DNA of 42,652 nucleotides, from positions 1 to 42,652 of IMG/VR virus record IMGVR_UViG_3300032011_000026; one strand, written 5' to 3'. The notes beneath the pieces are model-generated. The model saw only the letters and a program-made list of their open reading frames with translations, had not been told where the DNA came from and made no database searches. Every line of letters starts with the position of its first letter. The first letter of the stretch is position 1. This document shows positions 3 to 14,646 of the stretch, one piece after another. A program made the translations under genes and the position numbers. The DNA comes from a virus.

Positions 3-218
3 AATAAAAAGATAATTAAAGAAGCGACAGCTGAACTATTAAAATATGGGGTCTCTCGCAAGAAAGATAAGAGTTATACAGATTCTGATTATAAATCCAT
101 AATTAAAGATTTAGGTGGTATAGTTACTCTGGCTCCAAAAAGCAGTGCAGATAACATTAAGATGCTTAAAGATGAAATAGCAAAAGCTGAGAAAGCAAAC
201 AAGAAACTAGGTAAATAA
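3..218 (+). CDS. C-terminal end of an upstream gene, product unknown
   Basis: An open frame enters from the left edge and ends with TAA one base before the vRNAP start codon. The visible 71 residues are lysine-rich and end in a probable helix (KMLKDEIAKAEKANKKLGK). The spacing suggests translational coupling to the next gene, so it is probably a late structural or virion gene by position. No family is recognised, and the start lies outside the window. Confidence 0.7.
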   Translation, partial: NKKIIKEATAELLKYGVSRKKDKSYTDSDYKSIIKDLGGIVTLAPKSSADNIKMLKDEIAKAEKANKKLGK

Positions 219-219
219 A

Positions 220-3200
220 ATGGGCAGTATCGCTGATGACGTTGCAGCTGCCAAGGCTAGCTTTAGTCCTAACCTTGCTAGCGCTAAACAAGATGCAGCT
301 ATAACCATAGCTGAAGCAAAATCCTCTTTATTACAAGAATCTGTACCTAGTCCCCTATCTCAGCACCTTCAAAGACAGAGATTCTCCGATATTGCAATTA
401 AGGCACGTAAAGAGTTTCTTGAAAGTCTTCCTGACCCAAAAAGGGTTATTAAAACAGAGAATAATATCCAGTTTCTTGCTGACGGTACATTCAATCTAAT
501 TAGTGCTACAGGGGAAATTTTACGTAATATAAGTAAGAAAGAGCTTCCGGATCTATTACGTATTGAAGAAGGGCGACTTAAAGATCTAGAAAAGCAAGAA
601 CGGCTTGGGATGAAAGCAACCCCTTTGACTGGATTAGGCGCTGTTGGGGTTGATGTTACAGGAAAGATAATTGGTGGAGCAGCTGAAATAGGTTCAGACA
701 TTACTCAGATAGGAACTCCTGCCCAAACTCTTACCGAAGAAGTTGATAGGTATAATCAATCTTTTGCTCATGAACGGTCTAAGGCGACTATATCTGAGTC
801 GATGCGTTTAGATAAAGAACCTCCTCCTAATCTTATTTCTAAAGAAGAGCTAGCCAAATACCAAAAAGTAAAGAAAGCAATGAGAGAGGACGCTCCACTT
901 TCTGCTGCTGACACAGAATATGTAAATACATCTGAAAAATTTAATACTATTGCTGGATTAGAATCCAAAGTCCATAGATCTTCAAAAACATACGATAAAA
1001 TTGAAGAAATATCAAAGGATATACAATCTCATATCCCCACCAAACACGCAGATGATATAGCTGTATCTTTGGCATATAAACGAGTTGCTAAAGAAGAAGG
1101 AATTCCTGCGGCTTTATGGAGGACATTAACCCAAGATTGGCAACATTTAGTTCAACAAGGTTTTGAAAGTATTCCATATATGATTGCTTTTACAGCTGGG
1201 GGCCCTATAACCCAAGCTGGTGTTTTGTATACTTTAGCAGTATCTAAAGCTAGAGAAATTACGACTACTTTTATGAAAGAGCATGATCGGGATCCGGATA
1301 CTAATGAACGCATGCGTATTGAATTTTTTGCAGGTGCTTCTACTGTAGCTGAAAAATTTGGTGATATGGCTGCTGTTAGGGCTATACCATTTGCTAAATT
1401 TGGTAGAGCTACTGGTATATTAAAACAAATAACTGATACATCTTCAGACGCTGTTAAAAAAGCTATTAGTAAAACTAGCTTTACAAGTAAAGTAGGTAAA
1501 GGACTGGGTAATACTGCATTAGCTCTTGGTGGTGAAGGAGTATCAGGAGGTTTAACTGCAACTTTTGATCAATTAGCTGCAGCAGGTAAAATAACAGACC
1601 CAGCTCAAATAGGATTTGATGCACTAGCTGAGGCTGTAGGTACTGTCGGCGGTCTGGGAGGCATGGTTGCTGGTAAAGCTCTTTATAACACCGCTAAATT
1701 ACCTTTTACGCCCTCCAGAGAGGAACGAAGGATACAGGAGGAGTTAGCTTATTTAGATAAAGCAATAGCTTCTGAAAAGCCAATTAAAGTTAAAGACACT
1801 GGTCAAGGTCAACCAATTCAAGATGAAATAGACACATTAAACGAAGGTCTTGAAAATATTAAAGATCCAGAACAACGAAAGATAAAATTAGAACAAATTA
1901 GACAGAATCTTTCTAAAGCAGGAAAAGACGATTCTGAGGCAGAGGCCATACTTGAAGAATACATAGCAGGAGATACCAAAAGACGGGATGAACTTACTGC
2001 TGCTTTAGAAAAGGTTTTACCTAAAGAAGTATTTGAAAAACGAAAAGCTGCTATATTAGCTGAACAAAAAGAAAGACAAGAGTCTAAAGCTAAAAAGAAA
2101 CTCTTAAAAACTAAAGAGGGTAAAGAAGCACGTATAGCTGAGATTGATAAAGAAATAGAAGCAGTTAGAGCTAAAGAAGGATTCATTGATGCTGAAGCAA
2201 TAAGAAAATTAGAAGAGGAAAAACAAGGGTTAACTGAAGGATTAGATTCATTTGCTACTAAAATAAAACGAACATTTGTCGGGGACGTAGATCCTAGATT
2301 TGAGGACCCTCAAGAACCGGTAGACGATAGAACATACACTCCACTAGAAGATGCAGAATTCAATAAGTTAGTAAAATCTATAGATGTTGAGAAACTTACA
2401 GATCCTGCCACTGATCCTGCAGAATTAGATGAAGCTCTTAATAAAATAGCTGAGATTCATAAGTATAAAGAATTAACAGATTCCCAAGATCAAATATTAA
2501 GTAAAATTAAAGATGAGCTTGCTGAGGTAGATCCTAGATTTAAAGAGGGTCCTTTAACTAGTATTAAAGGGGTAGTTAATGCAACAGAGGAACAGTTAAA
2601 AAAACAACTTAGAATTGCTAAAAAGAATAAGAAAACTGAAGATATAAAACTTATTAATGCTGAGCTTAAAAGAAAAGTCAAACAAGCTGAACTTAAGAAG
2701 ATAGAGAATCAAAAAACAATGGGAGAAGTTCACTCTCAGGTAGTAGATGGTCCTGGGACTAGATGGAAAGGAATACATACATACTATGATGAAATAGTAA
2801 AGACGGTAGCTGAAATTAAAGACAAAGTAATAGCAGAAGACGCAGTTATTAACATAATACAAAGAATGAGTACCCATGTAGGTAATCTCAAAAGAAAACA
2901 GGAAGCATTTACTGCTGCTTATAATAAACCTACGTTAAAGAAAGGTATTCGTGTTGTAAGAGGAACAGCTGGCGAAGGACGAGTAATGAAGTACACAGAA
3001 GAAGTTATGTCTGTTAAAGCCTTTAGAGCTGCACGTAAAAAGAATGAGTATGTCACTGCTATTTTTAAAGAAAAGAAAAAAGGATTTGGGTACACATCAG
3101 AAGGATTAATTAAAAAAGTTGGGCTTGAAGTAGAATATGGTAACGAATTTCTAACTGTTGTTGAGGGATTTAGAGAGACCTCTTTTAGCCGAGCAGCAGC

Positions 3201-6200
3201 GGAGCTGGATGCGAGGCGTAAAGCATTAAAAGAAAAACAAGCAAAAGCTGCCAAAGTTAGATTTAAATTAAAAAAAGCTCTTATTCTTAACAAGAAGACT
3301 CAAGATAGTCTTGATGCATTATTTAAAACTAAATCTAATAAAGAACTGCAGAAGTACATAATTGAAAAAAGAGAAGAAATAAAACAACTTAAAAATATTA
3401 GTGAGAAAGCACAGGAAGAAGCAGTACTTGCATATGCAGTCTTAGCATTTAATGCGCGTACACCAGAGAAAAAGAAGAAGAAAGAGAAAGAGAGCAAGCC
3501 TAAACCAGGTACTGCTTTTTCTAATGAAAAAGTATGGCCAATAAAAAGACTTAAAAAGAGTATCGCTACATTACAAGGACAGATAGATAAGGCTACAAAT
3601 CCTAAAGCTATATGGCAAAAGAACATTGATAGTATGACTGCCGAACTTGAACGGCGCGGGGTTGATGTAAAAGGTGAAGCTTCCATTACTAAAAAGCTTT
3701 TACTTGAAGCTAAAAAAACATTTGATGCATTTACTGGCATAATTGAGGAATTAAATAATAAAAAAGTTGGGGTTATAGATAGTGATAAAACACAAGCTTT
3801 AGCTCAAGCAAGCTCGACAAGTTTAAATCCTACAATTGTATTAAATATTAAAGCCATTGTAGAAGATTTTCAAAATGACATGGCGTATCTCGATGGAAAA
3901 GGTGAAGGTATCCATGCAAATACTTCCAGACAAAAAGCAGAAGTATTTAAAAATGTTGATGTACCCGCATTTAAAAAATTCATTAGAGACAATGGCGGTA
4001 TAGCTGCATATATTAATTTTATTTATCAGCATGAAAAATCACATATCATTAATAAAGATGGTGCGAAATATCCAAAAAAGAAAGACGGAACAACAGATAT
4101 TATGCATGCAGATTCTATAGCTATTGAAAGATCTGCTAATGCATACGCATTTGAAAAAATAGGTTTTAAAGCAGCAGAAACTACCAAGTCAGAATCAAAA
4201 ACAAGATTTGGGAAAGTTACTTATTGGAAAGGAAAATGGACTGTAAAAGATATACAAAAGAATTCAAATAAGATTTTTATCTTTGGAGATAACTTATTAA
4301 AAAAAGGAAAATTAGGGCAAGCAATTATTAGAGAATTAATGAATGCTTTTGGTATTCCAACTAAGAAAGCGCCTTCTACTACTACAGACAGTTATTTTAC
4401 AGATGATGAGTTAGAAGATAACAAACTATATATTAACGCCGCATTTCTAAAAATTGAAACAGGTAAAGATATATTTTTACCTCAAGCAGGCTTAGGAACT
4501 GGACTGGCTAAATTAGCAGAAAAAGCGCCTGAAACATTAAAATACATACAGAGTATTCTTAGTTATATGGAGGAAAATTCAGAACTACCTCCATATGTAG
4601 AAAGAAAAGCTAAATTAGAGGTAATACAAAACTACGCGAAAAGAATGATTACAGAGTTCATTCCTAAAACCGCGAGGGAAAAACACTTAAAGAAAGAGCT
4701 ACTTAAAGCCAAAGTAGCTACACAATTTATTGGGGCAGGAAAACAACATTCATCCACAGATGTTTATAGAGAAATATACGACAGAATAGGACTAGCTAAT
4801 ACAGGTGAATACACGTCTAAAGATACTATTTTTATAGCATCTAATGGCAACCGCTATGGCAGAGTTATACCTGTTGGTACAAATGGAAAATTACGAGGAG
4901 TCTATACGAATGTAGATCTCGCAATAGAAGCAGGCGCCACTATTATTATGGATACGGCGGGTCATTTAGCTGACTCTAACTACAATGTAGGGGAAATGGA
5001 GTTAGCTGAATACTTAAAAAAGAAAGAATATGTGAGGCAGGGTAAAACAGGTGTTTGGAAAAAACAACCTGCTAAAGGAGAACAAGGAACTAAAACACTT
5101 ACTGAAGCTGATATAAAAATTTTAAGAGAACATAAATGGCAACCTTTTGACCCCGGACCGGATGAAGTTCCTACTGCTTTATTTAGTGACGCCGAAATTG
5201 AAAGTTACATAAAAGATCCTAGTCAAATCCAAAGAGACATAACATCTTTAACGCCATTAGCTTCACTTGAACCAGATTGGGAGAAACGAAGATTACAGAA
5301 GATAAAGAATGACACACTTGCAGTGGATATCGATAAAGCTAATGCCAAAATAGATGTATTAAAATCGCTATCTGTAATGAAGGAAGAGAAGACTCCGCCA
5401 ACTGAAGTTGAGCACTATAAAGGTTCTTCTAAAGAATTAGTATTTAGTACAATTAAAGAACTAATTGAAGGACTTAGTAAGTCATCTGCCAAAAAAGCTA
5501 AATGGATATCTACATGGTTTGGCCCCATAGCTTATGAGTATTCAGGAGGAAACGAAATAATTAATCATCCTGCACAGGAAATGCCTGAAAAATTTGCAAA
5601 GATTGCTAGGGGTTTAGAGGGAAAATTAGGGTACCCTGAAGGATACTTTAATAGTGCACTAATGAATGTATTTCCTAAAGAGGTAGGAATTGGTAAACAT
5701 GCCGATGACGAAGAAATTTATGGTGCAGATGATCAAGAACAAACTATAGGAGCAGTAGCTACTGTTAGTTTAGGTGGTACATCAGCAGTTAAAATAACGA
5801 GTAATGACGGGAAAAAACAGTGGAATCTTAAGATAGAAGACGGCGATGTATACATCATGCCTGGGGGAAACTTCCAAAGAAAGCATAAGCATCAGGTAGG
5901 TAAATCATCATCTCCGCGTATTAGCATGACATTTAGGCATGTGCCTAAAAATAGAATAACAGAACAACAAGATCCCATAGAACACCCGGATGCTAAAGTA
6001 TTAAATGCTGCTAAAAACGTAACACTCGGTAACGTTTTAGAGTTACTAAAATCCTTAACTCACAAACTAAAAGATAGTGATGAACGGATTCATGTTTCTG
6101 ATGAATATAAAAAAGCTTATGAAAATGTGCTTATAAAATTTACTACTTTAGTGGAGAAAAAAGTTGAAAAAGAATCAAATGCAAGTCTTATGTTCGGAAT

Positions 6201-9200
6201 TACTGAAATGGAAGAACAGAAAGCCCCAGAAGGTAATGAAAATTGGAACTACGAAGTACTACCAGCACTGGACGTTGTTCGAGTGGCATGGAGGGTTGTT
6301 TGGAAAGAACTTGCAAAAAGAAAAAAATTACAAGACAAAAAAACGAACTTTAAAGGACTTAAAGCAGAAGATATTATACCTGATGGCTTTATTGAATCAC
6401 TTAGCGAAGATTACGGTCCAACTAAAGAGGCACCTACAGAAGATAAAACACAATACGGTAAACTTACACCAGAAATAGTAAAAGGATTTAACTCCGCCCA
6501 AGACGCTGTTGAATGGTTAATTGATAATACCGACAATCCATTATATAGGAGATTTGCTCAACGAATTAAAGATAGCATTCCTAATATTCCTATTAGATTT
6601 ATTGATAAAGATTACATAACCGCGGAGGATGGTAGTAGAGCAAGAGGTGTAGCAACTCGTAGATATGAAGATCTAGAAGACGGTTTATTCACCACCAGCA
6701 CAGGTATCTCCTTAGCTAGATCAGGAGTAAACGAATCAACATTACTACACGAACTTTTTCATGTAGCTGTAGCAGTTCTTTTTTCAGGACCAATAACTCT
6801 TAAACAAAAAGCCGCTAAACAACAATTACTCGATATAGCTACACATTTAAAGACTGTTATCGATTCTAACGAGATTAAGGGGATGCAGTTAAACCCGGAT
6901 CAAATAACTCTGCTAGATCTTATGAGAGGTCTAGAGGTTCCCGGAGATGAAAAAACTAAAAGCAACGCTGCAGTAGAAGAATTAATAACATATGCTTTAA
7001 CTAACCAACAAGCTAGGGCGCTGATGATGTCGCTTCCTGCTCTTGAGACTGGATACAAGTCTTTATGGTCAGAATTTGTAATAGCTATTCGCAAATTAAT
7101 GGGAATGGAAGATACCGAAAAGTATCCTCCGACACTATTTGATCAGATAGTCGAAAGCACAGATATACTAATAGAAAAGCCTGAAGCCAAGAAAACTAAA
7201 CAAAAACCAATTAGCAGACATTTACCTAAGGAATCCCAAAGTAAACAGGCATTCTATGTTTTATACCCGGAAATTCTTACAAAAGATGGGATCTTAGCAG
7301 AGGATAGTGTACTAGCTAAGCATTTTGAAATATTAGAATCATTAGCTACTGCATTAGGATTAAAATCCCCTGCTTTTGCGTGGAATAAAGATAAACAATC
7401 CTACTCCTATGAGAGAAAAGATATTGAGGCGGCTTTAAAAGCATTACCAGACAATAAAGATTTTTTAGAAGCAAAAATTGAGACTAGACAACTTGAAACT
7501 ACTATTACTGAAGAACAATTAAAGAAAGCTAAAACAAAACAACATGCAAGTATAGGTAAGAAAAGCGAAAAAAGCATAGCTGAACGAATAGCTGAAAACC
7601 TAGAAAATGTCTTTGGCATTTTAGGCGTATACGTTAATAAGTTAATTACTATTCGTAAGATACGAGATAAAAAAGCTCTCAATGGTATTCATACTCTCCC
7701 AGATGCTGTATTTGAGGATACTCATGCGTTTAGCGGTCTTCCAATTACAGATGCATCAGGTAAAAAACAATATAAAACTTTAGAAAGAGCTCTTATCGCT
7801 TTAGGTGTATCAGAAGAAGGTGCTGCTGAACTAGTAGAAGAATATTCAAGATATGCTAGAAAGTACGAAGCTATACGTGTAGACGGTAGAGTTTTAGATA
7901 CAGAAGGTAATCCACAAGGCAATACCGCTATTAATAAGCCGTTATCTATACTTTATAGTGAAGATCAAAATGTAACAGAATTCCCGCCTCAAATAATATT
8001 TGGAATGATGTTAGGTACCGTTACTTGGCTTCAACAAAATCCAACTAATATTAGATTTAAAAGTGATCTTGGTAGAGAAATATTTTTGTATGGAGATCAT
8101 GCTCAGCTCTCTCCTAGTGAACGAGGCCAAGTGAAGAATGTCGGGCATTCTTACACGGAAGCGGTGTCTACTGTTGGTAATAATATTATCAGTATTTTAA
8201 AGATATCAGGAAAAGATCTGGATACGGATGTTTACTATAATAATTTAAGTATAGCTTTAGGACAGCTAGCCTTGCAGGTAGAACATGGACCTCAAGAACT
8301 CACTCTTACAGACAAAACCTCGTATACACAACCAACTGTAGAATTTGAAGGAGACGAATCTAGACTTCATATAGAAGGTAAATTATGGAACTTTAAGCCT
8401 GCCAAGAAAGAAGGGCGTATTTTTAATAACGCCGATAAGAAACCGTATAAACATATTAAACTTAACCTTAAAAAAACTAGTGATGGAAAAGAAACTCCTC
8501 TTAAACTTCCTAAAGCAACTGTTGATGCTAGTAAAGAGATATTAGCAGTTATAGACGCGGATGTAGATACAGAAGGAGGTAAGCCAGCTCAAAAACCATT
8601 TCCTAAGGTTGTTGACAATATAAAGAATTCTTTAGGTGGAGTAGCTAATGAAATTAAAGATGTACTTAGTGTCCTCCAGGGAAACGATGAAAAACAACAT
8701 GTTTCATGGACGGGGACACAGTCTTTAGATATAGCAGTTAAATTAGATGAAGCAGGCGAAAAAGACGCACTTTATAAGCTTGCTGGAGTAGAGCATGTCG
8801 ATGATACTTATCATATTGTACGCCGAGAATCTATTGAAGCCTCTAATGCAGACAAAACTAACGCAATTGATGGTCTTCTAGATGCATACAATCACGAAGA
8901 CGGCAATCTACTAAAGAAGTTTTATTTTAGATATAAGCTGCAAATTCAAAACCGCATTATGATGCAGTCTTCTGGAACTATTAATCCACAAGCCAGTGGA
9001 GTTGATAGATACTATGTAAGACCTACAAAAGCTTCTGTTAAATATACCGAAAAAGATCTATGGAAATTCAAGTTATCCGTTGTCGGTAACTTTGGGTTTG
9101 AAATAGATAAAAATGACCTGACATCTGCTTTAGATGCCTTTGATTATTTAATAGCCGATGGAGATGTTTTAGAAGCTGTAAGCGCAATACAAAATATAGA

Positions 9201-12200
9201 TGAAGCAGGTCAACCAGCTAAATTAGCAAAGCTTTTATTAATTATTAAAAATAAAGAAGTCCTAGGCGAAGCGGATCACCCGTCGTCCATATTGAATGGA
9301 TTAACAGGATTAGCTCAAGGACTAACAGTAGGTAGTAATGTTACAGAAGCCGGAGAATCAGTCAAAGCAACCAAACTGGGAATACTAAAAACGGACTTTG
9401 AATCAGATGTAGTTTTAGAAATTGATGGTATATCTAGTGGATTTGCTCAAAACGCTCTTCAGTTTCCTATGTATGGGAAAGAAGGAAACGAATTACGGCG
9501 GAATCAAACAGGTACATATATTGGTCCTACAGAATCATCTACTACTCATGATCCATACAAACAAGATATTTATCAGGATGTCGGAACTAAAGTTGAGGAA
9601 TACTCTGGAGTTGATACGGCTGAATCCTTTCATCTTGGTCAAAAGAACAAAAAACCTTTTAATCGTGATCAGTATATAGCTAGAAATAATTCATTAAATG
9701 AATTGTATCCTACGCTTAAAAATGGGGATATGCGTAAACTTATTAAATACCCATTTCTTATTTTTATGTATGGTGGCGGGCCTAAGAGCATCTCTGAAGG
9801 TATTGCAGGAGATATACTATCTGAATTGTATGTACAGCTAGATTTACATCAAAGACGCTACCACAAACTTAAAACTCAAAAAGCTAAGAATGCTTATCTA
9901 AAAGAAAAGGTATTACCATTTCTGGAACATTTAAGAGTAGTAGGAGCTATTGATAACGTCGCAATATTTAGAGGGGCATTTGTAAACCCGAAAAAAGTAA
10001 AAGAAGAGCTACTTAAGGATGCAGTAGCCATTTCTCGAATATCTATTTTATTACGCCCAAGATTACAACTAGGACTGGAAAGTATTCTATTAGGTACAAA
10101 AGACGCTAGAGATGCGGCAATACAAGCAGGAGAGGTGTTACATGCTGTGTTCATGGCTCATTTCGAAAAGGCTCAAGAAGAAGCACTGATTATTCGTAAT
10201 GAAAACGGAGAAGATACTGGGCAGAGAAGACCAAATTTAACTGAAAAAGAGATTAACGAACTTATTAGAAAAGAACTAATTAGTCTATTACCTCAATACA
10301 AGGGACCTTTACAGCAAACGGATCAGTCTTTTATAGATCTGACTAAACGACAATCCTCCGAATCTGATAGTACCAGTGAAATGGTCACTATTGAGTATAA
10401 GGATCCTAAAAATAAAAGAGGAATAGGCACAGCTAGTACTACGCCGAAGCGTATGACTTTTACGTCTCCTGGCGTTAGCGCACTAATTCGTATGATCATC
10501 AATATGGATGCGGCTATATTGACTAAAACTTTAGCAGCTCACCCACATGTACTCATGCTTCATGACGCTGTAATGGGGGATCCTAATACATTAGAAGCAG
10601 CCAATACTACATATGGCAAGTGGTACGTAAAGCTTAACAGAGAATATAGTGTACTAGATTCTATTACAAAACGAATGAACGCTGTTATTGCTAAAACAGA
10701 AGCCAAGGACATAGAGAACGGTAATAATAATCTAATGGAGGCTGTAGATAGCTGGCTAATAGATAAAGCATTCATAAATCAATATGCAAAATCAAGCGAT
10801 ATAAAATCTAGAGAAGTTATTGTTCAACGTATTAATGATGTAAATAAAACCGTCCAAATAGAACGAAAAAAAGTAGAGGAGGAAATCTCTGAACGAGGAG
10901 GGAGAGTTATTTCTAGTCAATTATATATGGCTAGAAAACCTATCTTTGAAGCTACGCAAATAATCTTAGATAAAGAAAAAAATCTCCGATTAAAAATATC
11001 TAATTTAGTAGATTTAGTTTTTAAAGATGTTCCTAAAGACGTTCGAAATACGCCTTCAGAATTTGAAAAAGAAGAGCAGGCTATTAGTGAAGCATTTAGG
11101 AAAGAGATTAAAAAAGCTAAAAAAGGTAAAGGACTTTTTTATTCTTCATTACCTGACCAAAAAAGAGATAATCCTATAACAAAGTTAGTAGGAGATATCA
11201 CAAAAGAGAATATATTATCTACTTTTGCAGATATGCAAGAGCATTCCGAGAATTACTATGAAAATGATCAGGATCAAACTAGACATGCAGAAACATTACT
11301 AAGAGTACTTACTAAATTAGCTGATGGGTTGAAAGATTCCTCAGCTATTCGATTTACTCAAGAAGAGATAGACGGAATTACTCAAGGAGAATTTGATCCG
11401 GTCAGTAAGAGAGTAAGAGTATCTTTAAGTAGACAGGGTCCTTTATCTACGAATGCACAGTCTCCTCAGGAAGTATATGTGCATGAACTCGTACACGCCA
11501 TAGTTACTGTTGCATTAGATAAAAATCCTTTGTTAAGACGTAGAATAGAAAAACTATACCGACAGACTAAACAGGATTTAGCTGCTAATGACGGATACAA
11601 GATATTTTTAAATGATCCTAAGAGCAAAGACGAACAAGCAAAGAGGACTGCAAAGGAACAGTACGAATTTTTATTTACCAATCCAAAGAACGAGAAACAC
11701 AAGTTAGGTGAATTTTTAGCTTACGCTGTAACAAACAGACAACTTGTAAATTATCTATCCGGTACTAAAACTAAAATACACTACAAGTACAGAAAAGAAG
11801 AGACTCTCTTTACTAGAGCAATAGATGTATTCGAGTATTTTGTAGAACTTGCTGTAGATACTGTACTAAGAGCGTTCAATAAAAGAGGAGGTTTTGGTGC
11901 TAAAGCTAATCATGAAATGTTGGCAGTTCTCGAGGCATTAATAAATATCCAAAGTAACAATAGAAATAGACTAGAGCGGTTGCAAGATAAGCTATACAAA
12001 AATTTAGGTGATTCTGATCAATTTTTAAGAAAATTTGGTGATGAACAGGCATTAGCAATAATAGAGAGTGAACCAGCTGGTTTCCTTAAGCGCGTAGGTA
12101 GAGTTGCTGTAGGTGCCGGTTATCTTGCTATTAGTAAAAACGCCCAGACTCTGAAGACTAGGCAAATAGTATATAACGCCATGGGTGATACTTTACGCCA

Positions 12201-14646
12201 TTTAGCATTAGAGGTAGGTGAAGGAATACTTGGCAAACGACTAATCCAACAATTATTGTTCTCTAAAGTAAACGTATCTAAAGCACGTCAAGAGGCCGAA
12301 AGGTTTACTATTAAATGGTTTAACGGGATCTGGAAGTCAGTAGATGCTAGCAAACCTAAAGGAATGTCTGTAGATTTAAGAGAAAATCTAACTAATGTAA
12401 TATTTAGAACTGATTTATCCAGTCTATTAAACATGGGTCTTTCTCATGCAGAGATAGCTAGTTTTATAGGTGACAGGAGCAAAATTGATGCAAGATTAAA
12501 ATACCTTGAAAAACAAATATTAAATAAAAGACCTGCTAAGAGAAAGTACATTAACCACGCGGTGGATTATGCTAAAGAGCTTGGTGAATACATGGCTAGT
12601 GGAGATGTTGGTTTAGAAGTGGCTCATATGAATGCATTCACCATCGCAAGAAAATATTTAGCTAAACCAGAAGCCGGTGATCTGGCACTAATAGAAGCAT
12701 ACGCTACATTAACAGCCTTAAAAGCGACCAGATACGATGAAACTGCTGCTGTTAAGGAACTTGTTGATGCAGAATTTGCTGTGGATGCTACGCAGAATGG
12801 GTTTATAGATTTATTAGATAGCCATATTGAATTTGTTGACCGATCAAGAAAAGGAAATTTTGGCGGTAATCCTACACAAATGGTTAAGGGCTATATCGTA
12901 GAGAGGATAGATAACCTAACGGATATGAAAGTAGGGCTGGAGACTCAACGAAAAGATATGGAAAACGAGGGCTACCCAGAGATGTATGGATTAGGAGACA
13001 TTCCAGGACTTAAACCTGGTCAAAGAATAAACGACAAAATATTTATCGGACGAAATGCGCCTCCTATTCCTTATGTTTCTGCCATTATGTCTACGACCAA
13101 TAAACGTAATATCGGTACTACTTTAACAGAGATTTTATCAGAGAGTCCTAATTACCAAAAATCTCCTGGCGTACCTGATATGGCAAAAATAAAACAAGCG
13201 ATTCGTGATATTCATAAAGAACAGGAAAAATTGGCTTCTCGACGTAAATTAAAATTCAATAACGAATTACGATTACGCCCTGTTCTAGATGAGAAAGAAA
13301 ATGTTACTGATTATCGAGTAATCATGAACCACGTAACTCGGAAACAGTTATTAAATCCAGATTTAGAAATACAAAATGTATTCGCACATATGCAATCATC
13401 TTATATTGATCGCGTAGCTACTATTAAGAATGATAAAAGAACCATCGAGCTATTAGTATACGAACAAAAAGAAAGGCTACCATCTCACCGTGATGAGTTC
13501 ATCGATTTCTTAGACCCTGCAAATGGATTTATTGATCGTTATTACAGGCTACCTAAAGAAGTTAGAATGTATATGGATAGATTTACTAAAGACGGTAAAT
13601 TTATGGTTAGGAAAGACGCCGTTAATAAAATATTTGGGTACCAAGCAAGAGACTTGAGAAATATACCTGGGCTTAACCATCCTAGTATGGTTCATATAAA
13701 AAGGTTTGCAGGACTATTTCACTATATTCTCAGACAAATTATTGGCTATGGAAAGGATCGTATAGTCATAGCTATGCCGCAGGTATGGTTATACAACGCA
13801 TATTCTAACATAGCACAGTTAATGATGAGGAACATTCCTCTACCTTATATAATTCATAAGACTATTGAGGGATTTCATGAATACCAAGCATATCGTAACG
13901 ATACAGAAGAACGTAGAGAGCTTAAAAATACTATTAATATTAAAAATTTAGATAAAAAAAATAGTCCAGAAGCTATACAAGTAGCAGCATTAACAGTACG
14001 TATAGAGGGTAACAAGATTCATGCTATGAGTGCTGCAGGGTTGAATTCGCTTATTGTGGAGGATCTGAATGATGCTTCATTGGATGGATATATCAATCGT
14101 GGACGGAGATATTTGAAAACAAACAAGTGGTATAATGCGTCAGATAGGTTATCTACTACAGGGCATTCTGTAGCGGCTAATATTTTTATGACTAGAAGTA
14201 CAGGACCCTATCAGGTTATGCGTCAGATCGTGCAAATGACGGACTTCTTGGGTAGGTATGTGATGATGCAGCATGCTATGGAAATACGTGGGCTAGATTT
14301 TAATACAGCTATGCATGAAGCATTAGACGCATTTGTATTATTTGATGAAGCATTAGCTCCTGCTTTAGAGTCTTTAGAATCTCTTGGTGCTACTGTATTT
14401 TTATCGTACTTTTTACGTAATCAAAGATCAGCACGTCAAGTAGCTATGAGAAATCCTACTGGAGTAGCTATATCTGGAGCATTTCAATATTCGACCGGTA
14501 TACCAACATTAGGAAATTTAGACAGTGCATTTATAGCTGGGGATATAATGCCTACTACGATGTATTTAGATGAGCTATTTGACGAGGCTAATAACCCAAC
14601 AGGAGCAGATCTGCTAAACCAGGCATTAGGGGACATATTTAGTTAG
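220..14646 (+). CDS. Giant N4-like virion RNA polymerase with AlkB, zincin and other accessory domains
   Basis: A 4808-residue protein; N4 vRNAP is about 3500. T7-family polymerase motifs are visible. A probable motif T has R2912 followed by INPQ. Motif A is DGISSG with D3069. Motif B is R3172-x3-K3176-x7-Y3184-G. Motif C is HDA with D3449. The gaps D to K (107) and Y to D (265) are close to those of N4 vRNAP (111 and 273) and unlike T7. Upstream are a lysine/glutamate-rich coiled region (to about 1200), HEKSH (1271-1275, possible third ligand E1303), an FGDN...GIPTK domain (from about 1350), an AlkB-type dioxygenase (about 1700-1910: H1827-A-D1829, H1889 or H1891, RISMTFR at 1900-1906) and HELFH (2177-2181). 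After the polymerase come HELVH (3755-3759) and a C-terminal part of about 900 residues, probably for packaging as in N4. Expected to be injected with DNA and to transcribe early genes from hairpin promoters. The accessory activities are inferred from motifs only. Its stop shares four bases with the convergent minus-strand gene. Confidence 0.93.
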   Translation: MGSIADDVAAAKASFSPNLASAKQDAAITIAEAKSSLLQESVPSPLSQHLQRQRFSDIAIKARKEFLESLPDPKRVIKTENNIQFLADGTFNLISATGEILRNISKKELPDLLRIEEGRLKDLEKQERLGMKATPLTGLGAVGVDVTGKIIGGAAEIGSDITQIGTPAQTLTEEVDRYNQSFAHERSKATISESMRLDKEPPPNLISKEELAKYQKVKKAMREDAPLSAADTEYVNTSEKFNTIAGLESKVHRSSKTYDKIEEISKDIQSHIPTKHADDIAVSLAYKRVAKEEGIPAALWRTLTQDWQHLVQQGFESIPYMIAFTAGGPITQAGVLYTLAVSKAREITTTFMKEHDRDPDTNERMRIEFFAGASTVAEKFGDMAAVRAIPFAKFGRATGILKQITDTSSDAVKKAISKTSFTSKVGKGLGNTALALGGEGVSGGLTATFDQLAAAGKITDPAQIGFDALAEAVGTVGGLGGMVAGKALYNTAKLPFTPSREERRIQEELAYLDKAIASEKPIKVKDTGQGQPIQDEIDTLNEGLENIKDPEQRKIKLEQIRQNLSKAGKDDSEAEAILEEYIAGDTKRRDELTAALEKVLPKEVFEKRKAAILAEQKERQESKAKKKLLKTKEGKEARIAEIDKEIEAVRAKEGFIDAEAIRKLEEEKQGLTEGLDSFATKIKRTFVGDVDPRFEDPQEPVDDRTYTPLEDAEFNKLVKSIDVEKLTDPATDPAELDEALNKIAEIHKYKELTDSQDQILSKIKDELAEVDPRFKEGPLTSIKGVVNATEEQLKKQLRIAKKNKKTEDIKLINAELKRKVKQAELKKIENQKTMGEVHSQVVDGPGTRWKGIHTYYDEIVKTVAEIKDKVIAEDAVINIIQRMSTHVGNLKRKQEAFTAAYNKPTLKKGIRVVRGTAGEGRVMKYTEEVMSVKAFRAARKKNEYVTAIFKEKKKGFGYTSEGLIKKVGLEVEYGNEFLTVVEGFRETSFSRAAAELDARRKALKEKQAKAAKVRFKLKKALILNKKTQDSLDALFKTKSNKELQKYIIEKREEIKQLKNISEKAQEEAVLAYAVLAFNARTPEKKKKKEKESKPKPGTAFSNEKVWPIKRLKKSIATLQGQIDKATNPKAIWQKNIDSMTAELERRGVDVKGEASITKKLLLEAKKTFDAFTGIIEELNNKKVGVIDSDKTQALAQASSTSLNPTIVLNIKAIVEDFQNDMAYLDGKGEGIHANTSRQKAEVFKNVDVPAFKKFIRDNGGIAAYINFIYQHEKSHIINKDGAKYPKKKDGTTDIMHADSIAIERSANAYAFEKIGFKAAETTKSESKTRFGKVTYWKGKWTVKDIQKNSNKIFIFGDNLLKKGKLGQAIIRELMNAFGIPTKKAPSTTTDSYFTDDELEDNKLYINAAFLKIETGKDIFLPQAGLGTGLAKLAEKAPETLKYIQSILSYMEENSELPPYVERKAKLEVIQNYAKRMITEFIPKTAREKHLKKELLKAKVATQFIGAGKQHSSTDVYREIYDRIGLANTGEYTSKDTIFIASNGNRYGRVIPVGTNGKLRGVYTNVDLAIEAGATIIMDTAGHLADSNYNVGEMELAEYLKKKEYVRQGKTGVWKKQPAKGEQGTKTLTEADIKILREHKWQPFDPGPDEVPTALFSDAEIESYIKDPSQIQRDITSLTPLASLEPDWEKRRLQKIKNDTLAVDIDKANAKIDVLKSLSVMKEEKTPPTEVEHYKGSSKELVFSTIKELIEGLSKSSAKKAKWISTWFGPIAYEYSGGNEIINHPAQEMPEKFAKIARGLEGKLGYPEGYFNSALMNVFPKEVGIGKHADDEEIYGADDQEQTIGAVATVSLGGTSAVKITSNDGKKQWNLKIEDGDVYIMPGGNFQRKHKHQVGKSSSPRISMTFRHVPKNRITEQQDPIEHPDAKVLNAAKNVTLGNVLELLKSLTHKLKDSDERIHVSDEYKKAYENVLIKFTTLVEKKVEKESNASLMFGITEMEEQKAPEGNENWNYEVLPALDVVRVAWRVVWKELAKRKKLQDKKTNFKGLKAEDIIPDGFIESLSEDYGPTKEAPTEDKTQYGKLTPEIVKGFNSAQDAVEWLIDNTDNPLYRRFAQRIKDSIPNIPIRFIDKDYITAEDGSRARGVATRRYEDLEDGLFTTSTGISLARSGVNESTLLHELFHVAVAVLFSGPITLKQKAAKQQLLDIATHLKTVIDSNEIKGMQLNPDQITLLDLMRGLEVPGDEKTKSNAAVEELITYALTNQQARALMMSLPALETGYKSLWSEFVIAIRKLMGMEDTEKYPPTLFDQIVESTDILIEKPEAKKTKQKPISRHLPKESQSKQAFYVLYPEILTKDGILAEDSVLAKHFEILESLATALGLKSPAFAWNKDKQSYSYERKDIEAALKALPDNKDFLEAKIETRQLETTITEEQLKKAKTKQHASIGKKSEKSIAERIAENLENVFGILGVYVNKLITIRKIRDKKALNGIHTLPDAVFEDTHAFSGLPITDASGKKQYKTLERALIALGVSEEGAAELVEEYSRYARKYEAIRVDGRVLDTEGNPQGNTAINKPLSILYSEDQNVTEFPPQIIFGMMLGTVTWLQQNPTNIRFKSDLGREIFLYGDHAQLSPSERGQVKNVGHSYTEAVSTVGNNIISILKISGKDLDTDVYYNNLSIALGQLALQVEHGPQELTLTDKTSYTQPTVEFEGDESRLHIEGKLWNFKPAKKEGRIFNNADKKPYKHIKLNLKKTSDGKETPLKLPKATVDASKEILAVIDADVDTEGGKPAQKPFPKVVDNIKNSLGGVANEIKDVLSVLQGNDEKQHVSWTGTQSLDIAVKLDEAGEKDALYKLAGVEHVDDTYHIVRRESIEASNADKTNAIDGLLDAYNHEDGNLLKKFYFRYKLQIQNRIMMQSSGTINPQASGVDRYYVRPTKASVKYTEKDLWKFKLSVVGNFGFEIDKNDLTSALDAFDYLIADGDVLEAVSAIQNIDEAGQPAKLAKLLLIIKNKEVLGEADHPSSILNGLTGLAQGLTVGSNVTEAGESVKATKLGILKTDFESDVVLEIDGISSGFAQNALQFPMYGKEGNELRRNQTGTYIGPTESSTTHDPYKQDIYQDVGTKVEEYSGVDTAESFHLGQKNKKPFNRDQYIARNNSLNELYPTLKNGDMRKLIKYPFLIFMYGGGPKSISEGIAGDILSELYVQLDLHQRRYHKLKTQKAKNAYLKEKVLPFLEHLRVVGAIDNVAIFRGAFVNPKKVKEELLKDAVAISRISILLRPRLQLGLESILLGTKDARDAAIQAGEVLHAVFMAHFEKAQEEALIIRNENGEDTGQRRPNLTEKEINELIRKELISLLPQYKGPLQQTDQSFIDLTKRQSSESDSTSEMVTIEYKDPKNKRGIGTASTTPKRMTFTSPGVSALIRMIINMDAAILTKTLAAHPHVLMLHDAVMGDPNTLEAANTTYGKWYVKLNREYSVLDSITKRMNAVIAKTEAKDIENGNNNLMEAVDSWLIDKAFINQYAKSSDIKSREVIVQRINDVNKTVQIERKKVEEEISERGGRVISSQLYMARKPIFEATQIILDKEKNLRLKISNLVDLVFKDVPKDVRNTPSEFEKEEQAISEAFRKEIKKAKKGKGLFYSSLPDQKRDNPITKLVGDITKENILSTFADMQEHSENYYENDQDQTRHAETLLRVLTKLADGLKDSSAIRFTQEEIDGITQGEFDPVSKRVRVSLSRQGPLSTNAQSPQEVYVHELVHAIVTVALDKNPLLRRRIEKLYRQTKQDLAANDGYKIFLNDPKSKDEQAKRTAKEQYEFLFTNPKNEKHKLGEFLAYAVTNRQLVNYLSGTKTKIHYKYRKEETLFTRAIDVFEYFVELAVDTVLRAFNKRGGFGAKANHEMLAVLEALINIQSNNRNRLERLQDKLYKNLGDSDQFLRKFGDEQALAIIESEPAGFLKRVGRVAVGAGYLAISKNAQTLKTRQIVYNAMGDTLRHLALEVGEGILGKRLIQQLLFSKVNVSKARQEAERFTIKWFNGIWKSVDASKPKGMSVDLRENLTNVIFRTDLSSLLNMGLSHAEIASFIGDRSKIDARLKYLEKQILNKRPAKRKYINHAVDYAKELGEYMASGDVGLEVAHMNAFTIARKYLAKPEAGDLALIEAYATLTALKATRYDETAAVKELVDAEFAVDATQNGFIDLLDSHIEFVDRSRKGNFGGNPTQMVKGYIVERIDNLTDMKVGLETQRKDMENEGYPEMYGLGDIPGLKPGQRINDKIFIGRNAPPIPYVSAIMSTTNKRNIGTTLTEILSESPNYQKSPGVPDMAKIKQAIRDIHKEQEKLASRRKLKFNNELRLRPVLDEKENVTDYRVIMNHVTRKQLLNPDLEIQNVFAHMQSSYIDRVATIKNDKRTIELLVYEQKERLPSHRDEFIDFLDPANGFIDRYYRLPKEVRMYMDRFTKDGKFMVRKDAVNKIFGYQARDLRNIPGLNHPSMVHIKRFAGLFHYILRQIIGYGKDRIVIAMPQVWLYNAYSNIAQLMMRNIPLPYIIHKTIEGFHEYQAYRNDTEERRELKNTINIKNLDKKNSPEAIQVAALTVRIEGNKIHAMSAAGLNSLIVEDLNDASLDGYINRGRRYLKTNKWYNASDRLSTTGHSVAANIFMTRSTGPYQVMRQIVQMTDFLGRYVMMQHAMEIRGLDFNTAMHEALDAFVLFDEALAPALESLESLGATVFLSYFLRNQRSARQVAMRNPTGVAISGAFQYSTGIPTLGNLDSAFIAGDIMPTTMYLDELFDEANNPTGADLLNQALGDIFS

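Follow-up and report, generated by a model that had tools for sequence, protein, structure and literature searches.

The DNA analyzed here, hereafter the window, is a virus record of 42,652 bases (IMGVR_UViG_3300032011_000026), probably a fragment, and all coordinates below are on its plus strand. The open reading frame at 220..14646 runs for 4808 amino acids with no internal stop and encodes a multidomain (putatively polyvalent) virion RNA polymerase (vRNAP) of the N4 type. In PHROGs, the full-length protein hits phrog_2206, "virion RNA polymerase", with an E-value of 5.7e-180, and this family matches all 18 of the 18 Schitoviridae-type isolate genomes, in open frames of 3030-4117 aa. The RNA polymerase core (8968..10605), which carries the motifs EIDGISSG, R-x3-K...YGGG, and LHDA, matched 20 phage records in tblastn at 22-24% identity (16 of the 20 at 80% query coverage or more), and most of these records are annotated as N4-like vRNAP. 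When a profile of the window and five related contigs was aligned by hhalign to two isolate vRNAPs, the probability was 97.9% and the E-value 2.8e-12, with the EIDG and R...K...YGGG motifs in register; contigs L012, L013, and L015, which are devoid of the anchor motif, were left out of this profile. The Pfam models of vRNAPs had no match in the window protein (a relative, L007, reached 26 bits against PF21867, just under the cut-off of 27), and phmmer found no match between the RNA polymerase region and PDB sequences. The silence of the Pfam models raised the question of whether the frame encodes a vRNAP at all, but phrog_2206, tblastn, and hhalign rule out the contrary, and the vRNAP setting given in the initial annotation is thus borne out. 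The neighboring genes form a Schitoviridae set: SSB, Sak4-like, primase, exonuclease, helicase, DNA polymerase, N4-like RNA polymerase, and terminase. The primase matches 470 phage records, with Sinorhizobium phage ort11 in the top row (46.8%).

This single frame combines the RNA polymerase, a putative AlkB-type dioxygenase, a DUF7831 domain, and three HExxH motifs. DUF7831, a second cargo domain, covers residues 1337-1445 (4228..4554; PF25176, E 5.5e-32). It matches 98 phage records, many of them of phages of Caulobacter and Rhizobium, and those that are annotated read "hypothetical protein"; a search for it in 13 environmental records gave no match, a result that is uninformative since the controls were equally silent. 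Residues 1467-1599 (4618..5016) form an unnamed domain containing the string ATQFIG, common to L001, L004, and L008, for which there was no Pfam match and which is similar to proteins from four records of Vibrio phages. The HExxH motifs are HEKSH at residue 1271 (4030..4044), upstream of DUF7831, HELFH at residue 2177 (6748..6762), downstream of the AlkB-type domain, and HELVH at residue 3755 (11482..11496), in the conserved C-terminal region (residues 3661-4808, 11200..14643) that the window shares with contig L021. An isolate vRNAP of the N4 type has its only HExxH at the place of HELVH. HEKSH and HELFH are putative zincin motifs; they bracket the region of DUF7831 and AlkB and might cut this cargo free.

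The AlkB-type Fe(II)/2-oxoglutarate dioxygenase domain, predicted at about residues 1730-1909 and confirmed at the level of sequence profiles and a structural model, had been proposed in the initial annotation from short strings. All of these strings occur at the stated places, with PIAYEYSGG beginning at residue 1769, GKHADDE at 1825 (with H1827 and D1829), RKHKHQV at 1887, and RISMTFR at 1900. The interval given there, 5480-5938, does cover residues 1754-1907, yet base 5480 is out of frame and the block shared with a related contig is larger (about 5398-5958, see below). The Pfam family 2OG-FeII_Oxy_2 (PF13532) matches residues 1768-1906 (5521..5937) with an E-value of 5.7e-13 and 50 bits, for a cut-off of 31.2, and PHROG 21963, "alkylated DNA repair", matches residues 1744-1907 (E 2.6e-9). 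When 18 further AlkB proteins, excluding the window, L001, and L021, were combined into a profile, the domain of the window scored 88.2 bits and the best of 1000 shuffled sequences 5.4 bits. Since the 18 members were gathered by their likeness to the query, the independent test consists of the Pfam and PHROG matches. Taken with the shuffle control, these two rule out a chance match to the motifs. An assembly artefact is also unlikely, as the domain is present in three separate records (the window, L001, and L021), each time in a protein of the vRNAP locus. The domain is no direct equivalog of AlkB, because it scores far under the cut-offs of the NCBIfam AlkB models (29.7 of 231.05 bits for TIGR00568 and 23.9 of 267 bits for NF011930/PRK15401).

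To assess the conservation of the domain, we used an alignment of 21 relatives, all chosen by similarity, of which 14 are viral (including the window) and seven come from cellular genomes. Among the 14 AlkB loci that were collected, L020 duplicates L001, and L028 is not part of the alignments. There are 14 invariant columns in the alignment, including Y1772, Y1774, N1816, H1827, D1829, and Q1886, and H1891, R1900, T1904, and R1906 are likewise identical in all 21 sequences. H1827-A-D1829 (5698..5706) would provide the first two iron ligands and H1891 (5890..5892) the third, distal one. The late histidine had been left as either 1889 or 1891; H1889 varies among the 21 relatives and is ruled out as a ligand, which leaves H1891. 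Within RISMTFR (5917..5937), R1900 and R1906 are predicted to contact 2-oxoglutarate, a role that we assume from AlkB structures, and we take N1816 (5665..5667) to be the counterpart of the asparagine of AlkB that contacts the same cosubstrate. H1827, D1829, H1891, and the two arginines of RISMTFR, all in strings singled out from the letters only, coincide with invariant residues of the family. The motif of E. coli AlkB quoted for comparison, RYNLTFR, differs in its middle asparagine, which is a serine in the window. A profile of the 21 relatives searched against PDB sequences retrieved ALKBH3 (2.2e-47), ALKBH2 (about 7e-41), and E. coli AlkB (about 7e-11), whereas the best hit of the AlkB region as a single sequence in phmmer had an E-value of only 0.15.

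The structure predicted from the 21-sequence alignment has a pLDDT of 89.7 and a pTM of 0.86 and contains the strands of the double-stranded beta-helix, the feature whose absence had been named beforehand as refuting the assignment. The model obtained from two sequences only had a pLDDT of 39.6 and no usable fold, so the confident model depended on the alignment of ALKBH2/3-like relatives. The best structural match in PDB is ALKBH3 (8jnk_E), with a Z of 21.1 and an rmsd of 2.0 over 164 residues at 25% identity, followed by ABH2 (Z 20.4) and E. coli AlkB (Z 17.1). Foldseek also places the AlkB-family demethylases ALKBH3 and ALKBH2 nearest. Identity to the solved structures of the family is low, about 15-26%. 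The m6A erasers ALKBH5 and FTO also align with a Z of about 16, and the fold therefore does not give the substrate. Among the named entries that rank highest in a viral structure library, most are AlkB domains from replicase polyproteins of RNA viruses (best E 8.8e-14), and the first AlkB of a tailed phage comes at rank 33. With PF13532, PHROG 21963, and the invariant cofactor residues, the predicted fold upholds the claim of an AlkB-type domain.

How common is this domain in vRNAPs? We found one match to PF13532 among 13 environmental vRNAP records, in L001. Two of these records, L006 and L014, start downstream of the position of AlkB, which lowers the effective count to one in 11, and L008/L009 and L015/L016 look like near-duplicates. 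The window and L021 were chosen because they bear AlkB and stand outside this rate. None of the 18 isolate Schitoviridae-type genomes had a match to PF13532, while the positive control, SCTP-2, was matched. When the AlkB domain was searched by tblastn in 50,697 phage records, there were two matches, both in genomes larger than 400 kb. Pattern scans brought no new true member, and of the five stretches returned by a degenerate motif scan, those on the L001 and L021 contigs are real and three fall in unrelated frames. The known cases are thus three (the window, L001, and L021), all in vRNAP-locus proteins. The initial annotation had called for a survey of other vRNAPs, and its outcome is a domain that is rare and modular (0/18 isolates, 1/11 environmental contigs). 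As most related vRNAPs are devoid of AlkB, the domain is not required for early transcription in general.

Comparisons with individual relatives reveal how the domain comes and goes. The vRNAP of L004 (IMGVR_UViG_3300005593_000011; 4185 aa) aligns with that of the window in two large blocks that are 86% and 90% identical and in a short block, over the ATQFIG-containing domain, that is 62% identical. It lacks residues 1624-1923 of the window (5089..5988), bar three residues, and AlkB with them; it also lacks residues 1149-1468, bar ten, i.e., DUF7831 and the HEKSH motif. In L001 (IMGVR_UViG_3300028612_001033), AlkB is 84% identical to that of the window and the RNA polymerase core 68%. The AlkB block common to both is 561 bp long (5398..5958) and, along the diagonal of nucleotide identity, has abrupt edges on both sides: it starts about two bases past the start codon in L001 (window 5398), ends near 5958, and is flanked by unrelated sequence on either side. 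Between the two records, dS is 0.28 in AlkB (bootstrap 0.18-0.43), versus 0.87 in the RNA polymerase part (0.70-1.09) and 1.03 in the C-terminus (0.88-1.22), and the 180-codon stretch of lowest dS in the frame shared with L001 falls on AlkB. The dN/dS of the domain is 0.32 (bootstrap 0.17-0.58), which indicates purifying selection. In the first 600 bases of L001 (L001:1-600) the vRNAP is split: the upstream frame overlaps by 11 bases with the one that follows, which opens at AlkB with its own ATG. The gene could be truly divided, its parts being translationally coupled, or the sequencing could have introduced a frameshift. AlkB is still fused to the RNA polymerase part in L001.

In the third record, L021 (IMGVR_UViG_3300031629_000032), the AlkB domain is 57-60% identical to that of the window. 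In its frame (3-5819), which is cut off by the contig end upstream of AlkB, a RecD-like helicase (PF13604) stands between AlkB and the C-terminal region of the vRNAP (24.6% identity); the contig is again Schitoviridae-like, and the protein sits at its vRNAP locus. The adjacency of AlkB and a helicase recalls ALKBH3, which works with the helicase ASCC3 that supplies it with single-stranded DNA, according to PMC7608686; those are separate human proteins, and we mention the parallel as an analogy only. Because it is absent from L004, mosaic in L001, and re-housed beside a helicase in L021, the AlkB domain is, as far as sequence comparison can tell, a modular and exchangeable cargo of vRNAPs.

AlkB domains, vRNAPs, vRNAPs bearing cargo, and AlkB domains in the replicases of plant RNA viruses are all already known. 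The vRNAP of N4 is described in PMC5512222 (Iyer et al. 2017) as a packaged and injected multidomain protein with a zincin, and cargo domains of vRNAPs such as ART, lysozyme, and PBECR are described there as well. The protein of the window resembles these polyvalent vRNAPs in being a giant protein with an RNA polymerase, a putative HExxH zincin, and added enzymatic domains, and in its position and predicted role as a carrier; the terms "alkb", "dioxygenase", and "demethyl" are absent from the main text of that paper. In the literature on vRNAPs, Schitoviridae, polyvalent proteins, and N4-like phages, with few subscription journals covered, we found no description of a fusion between AlkB and a vRNAP. 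The domain shares with ALKBH3, ALKBH2, and E. coli AlkB the predicted fold, the HxD...H triad, the RxxxTxR tail, the asparagine for 2-oxoglutarate, and the YxY, and differs from them in sequence (about 17-26% identity) and in being embedded in a viral RNA polymerase. Like the AlkB domains of plant RNA virus replicases, as portrayed in PMC544882, it sits inside a large polymerase polyprotein, is patchily distributed, and was apparently acquired late; unlike those viruses, which have RNA-dependent replicases, the window belongs to a tailed DNA phage with a DNA-dependent RNA polymerase in the virion. The stand-alone AlkB proteins of large phages (PMC7824862), with gp317 of Salicola phage SCTP-2 as an example, belong to the same superfamily and also occur in tailed phages, but each is encoded by a small gene of its own outside virion polymerases, and their identity to the domain of the window is 24-34%.

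The AlkB domain is best read, from its sequence context, as an exchangeable cargo of a "polyvalent" injected protein. On balance, we consider it probable that it is a complete and selected cargo of the vRNAP that is injected and clears methyl lesions from incoming phage DNA. Of this reading, the predicted fold, the cofactor residues, the fusion, the pattern of presence and absence, and the mosaic edges are what the analysis shows directly. Repair of entering DNA, like the removal of a host mark discussed below, had been suggested in the initial annotation. As for the remainder of the vRNAP, packaging in the virion would bring the domain into the cell together with the phage DNA, and it would find iron, oxygen, and 2-oxoglutarate in the host. 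AlkB and ALKBH3 act on lesions of the m1A and m3C type, best in single-stranded nucleic acid. The injected domain may oxidatively remove such methyl lesions from phage DNA that is single-stranded or unwound, and perhaps demethylate early RNA too, which would keep the tethered polymerase, and then the replisome, from blocking. The extra HExxH (zincin-like) motifs may cut AlkB free. A more specific version, which we put forward tentatively and hold to be possible rather than probable, is that lesions on the newly entered and partly single-stranded genome are cleared during the first transcription by an AlkB domain that is physically tethered to the injected polymerase (and in L021 adjoins a helicase), as a cassette traded among Schitoviridae.

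Other readings give the domain another substrate. It might strip methyl marks placed by the host (e.g., m6A) on DNA or RNA, which would aid the phage against methyl-dependent defense or reset the host DNA, and we regard such an eraser as rather unlikely. PMC7824862 proposes the same for the sporadic AlkB-like proteins of jumbo phages, a patchy and recently exchanged presence suits the cargo of an arms race, and the model aligns with the m6A erasers ALKBH5 and FTO (Z about 16). However, two repair enzymes, ALKBH3 and ALKBH2, match best, and in PHROGs there were no methyltransferase families among 20 further ORFs of the window, a set drawn from a fragment and with many small ORFs outside it. We deem it improbable that the domain repairs RNA instead, acting on early transcripts or host tRNA as the counterparts in plant RNA virus replicases would suggest. 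The ranking in the viral structure library, with replicase AlkB domains ahead of any from tailed phages, speaks for it, and so does the conclusion of Bratlie and Drablos 2005 (PMC544882) that the replicase domains protect viral RNA. Yet plant viruses may make up much of the library and the rank of a fold does not set the substrate, the genome of a tailed phage is DNA, and a repaired transcript would presumably gain little over a new one.

The delivery and the activity of the domain can also be questioned. It could work only in the producing cell, or be cleaved off before packaging, and never be injected, to which we give a shade less credence than to RNA repair. The extra HExxH motifs on both sides of the cargo fit such a scenario, as does the ATG of the AlkB frame in L001, which overlaps the previous stop and places a gene edge at the frame boundary; it is at odds with the fusion of AlkB to the RNA polymerase part in that same record, with the single frame that holds all parts in the window, and with the packaging of the N4 vRNAP in unprocessed form that PMC5512222 reports. 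Even less credible, and in our opinion very unlikely, is a dioxygenase fold with no activity on nucleic acids, i.e., a hydroxylase of proteins or small molecules or a decaying passenger. The low identity to characterized enzymes and the narrow distribution would be in line with it, but the conservation of all cofactor residues throughout the 21 relatives, a dN/dS of 0.32, and nearest folds that are nucleic-acid demethylases argue against it.

Should the domain be active, it would be a demethylase of DNA or RNA that is predicted to arrive with the virion at genome entry, ahead of phage gene expression. This would suggest that methylation damage, or methyl-based defense, acts on incoming genomes strongly enough to select for a pre-loaded enzyme. 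If repair during the first transcription were true, the virion would deliver a transcription-coupled machine for direct-reversal repair, in which AlkB is one of several swappable cargo cassettes. Near-identical vRNAPs with and without AlkB provide a clean natural experiment and show how cargo comes into and drops out of giant virion polymerases. That RNA viruses have AlkB in their replicases as well points to a convergent fusion of AlkB to viral polymerase proteins.

Other relatives differ in their cargo and size. Close to its N-terminus, the related vRNAP at L007:1786-14892 has a transglycosylase (SLT) domain; it has no match to AlkB or DUF7831. In the environmental clade of L004 to L016, vRNAPs are unusually long, at about 4200-4700 aa where complete, compared with the frames of 3030-4117 aa in the 18 isolates.
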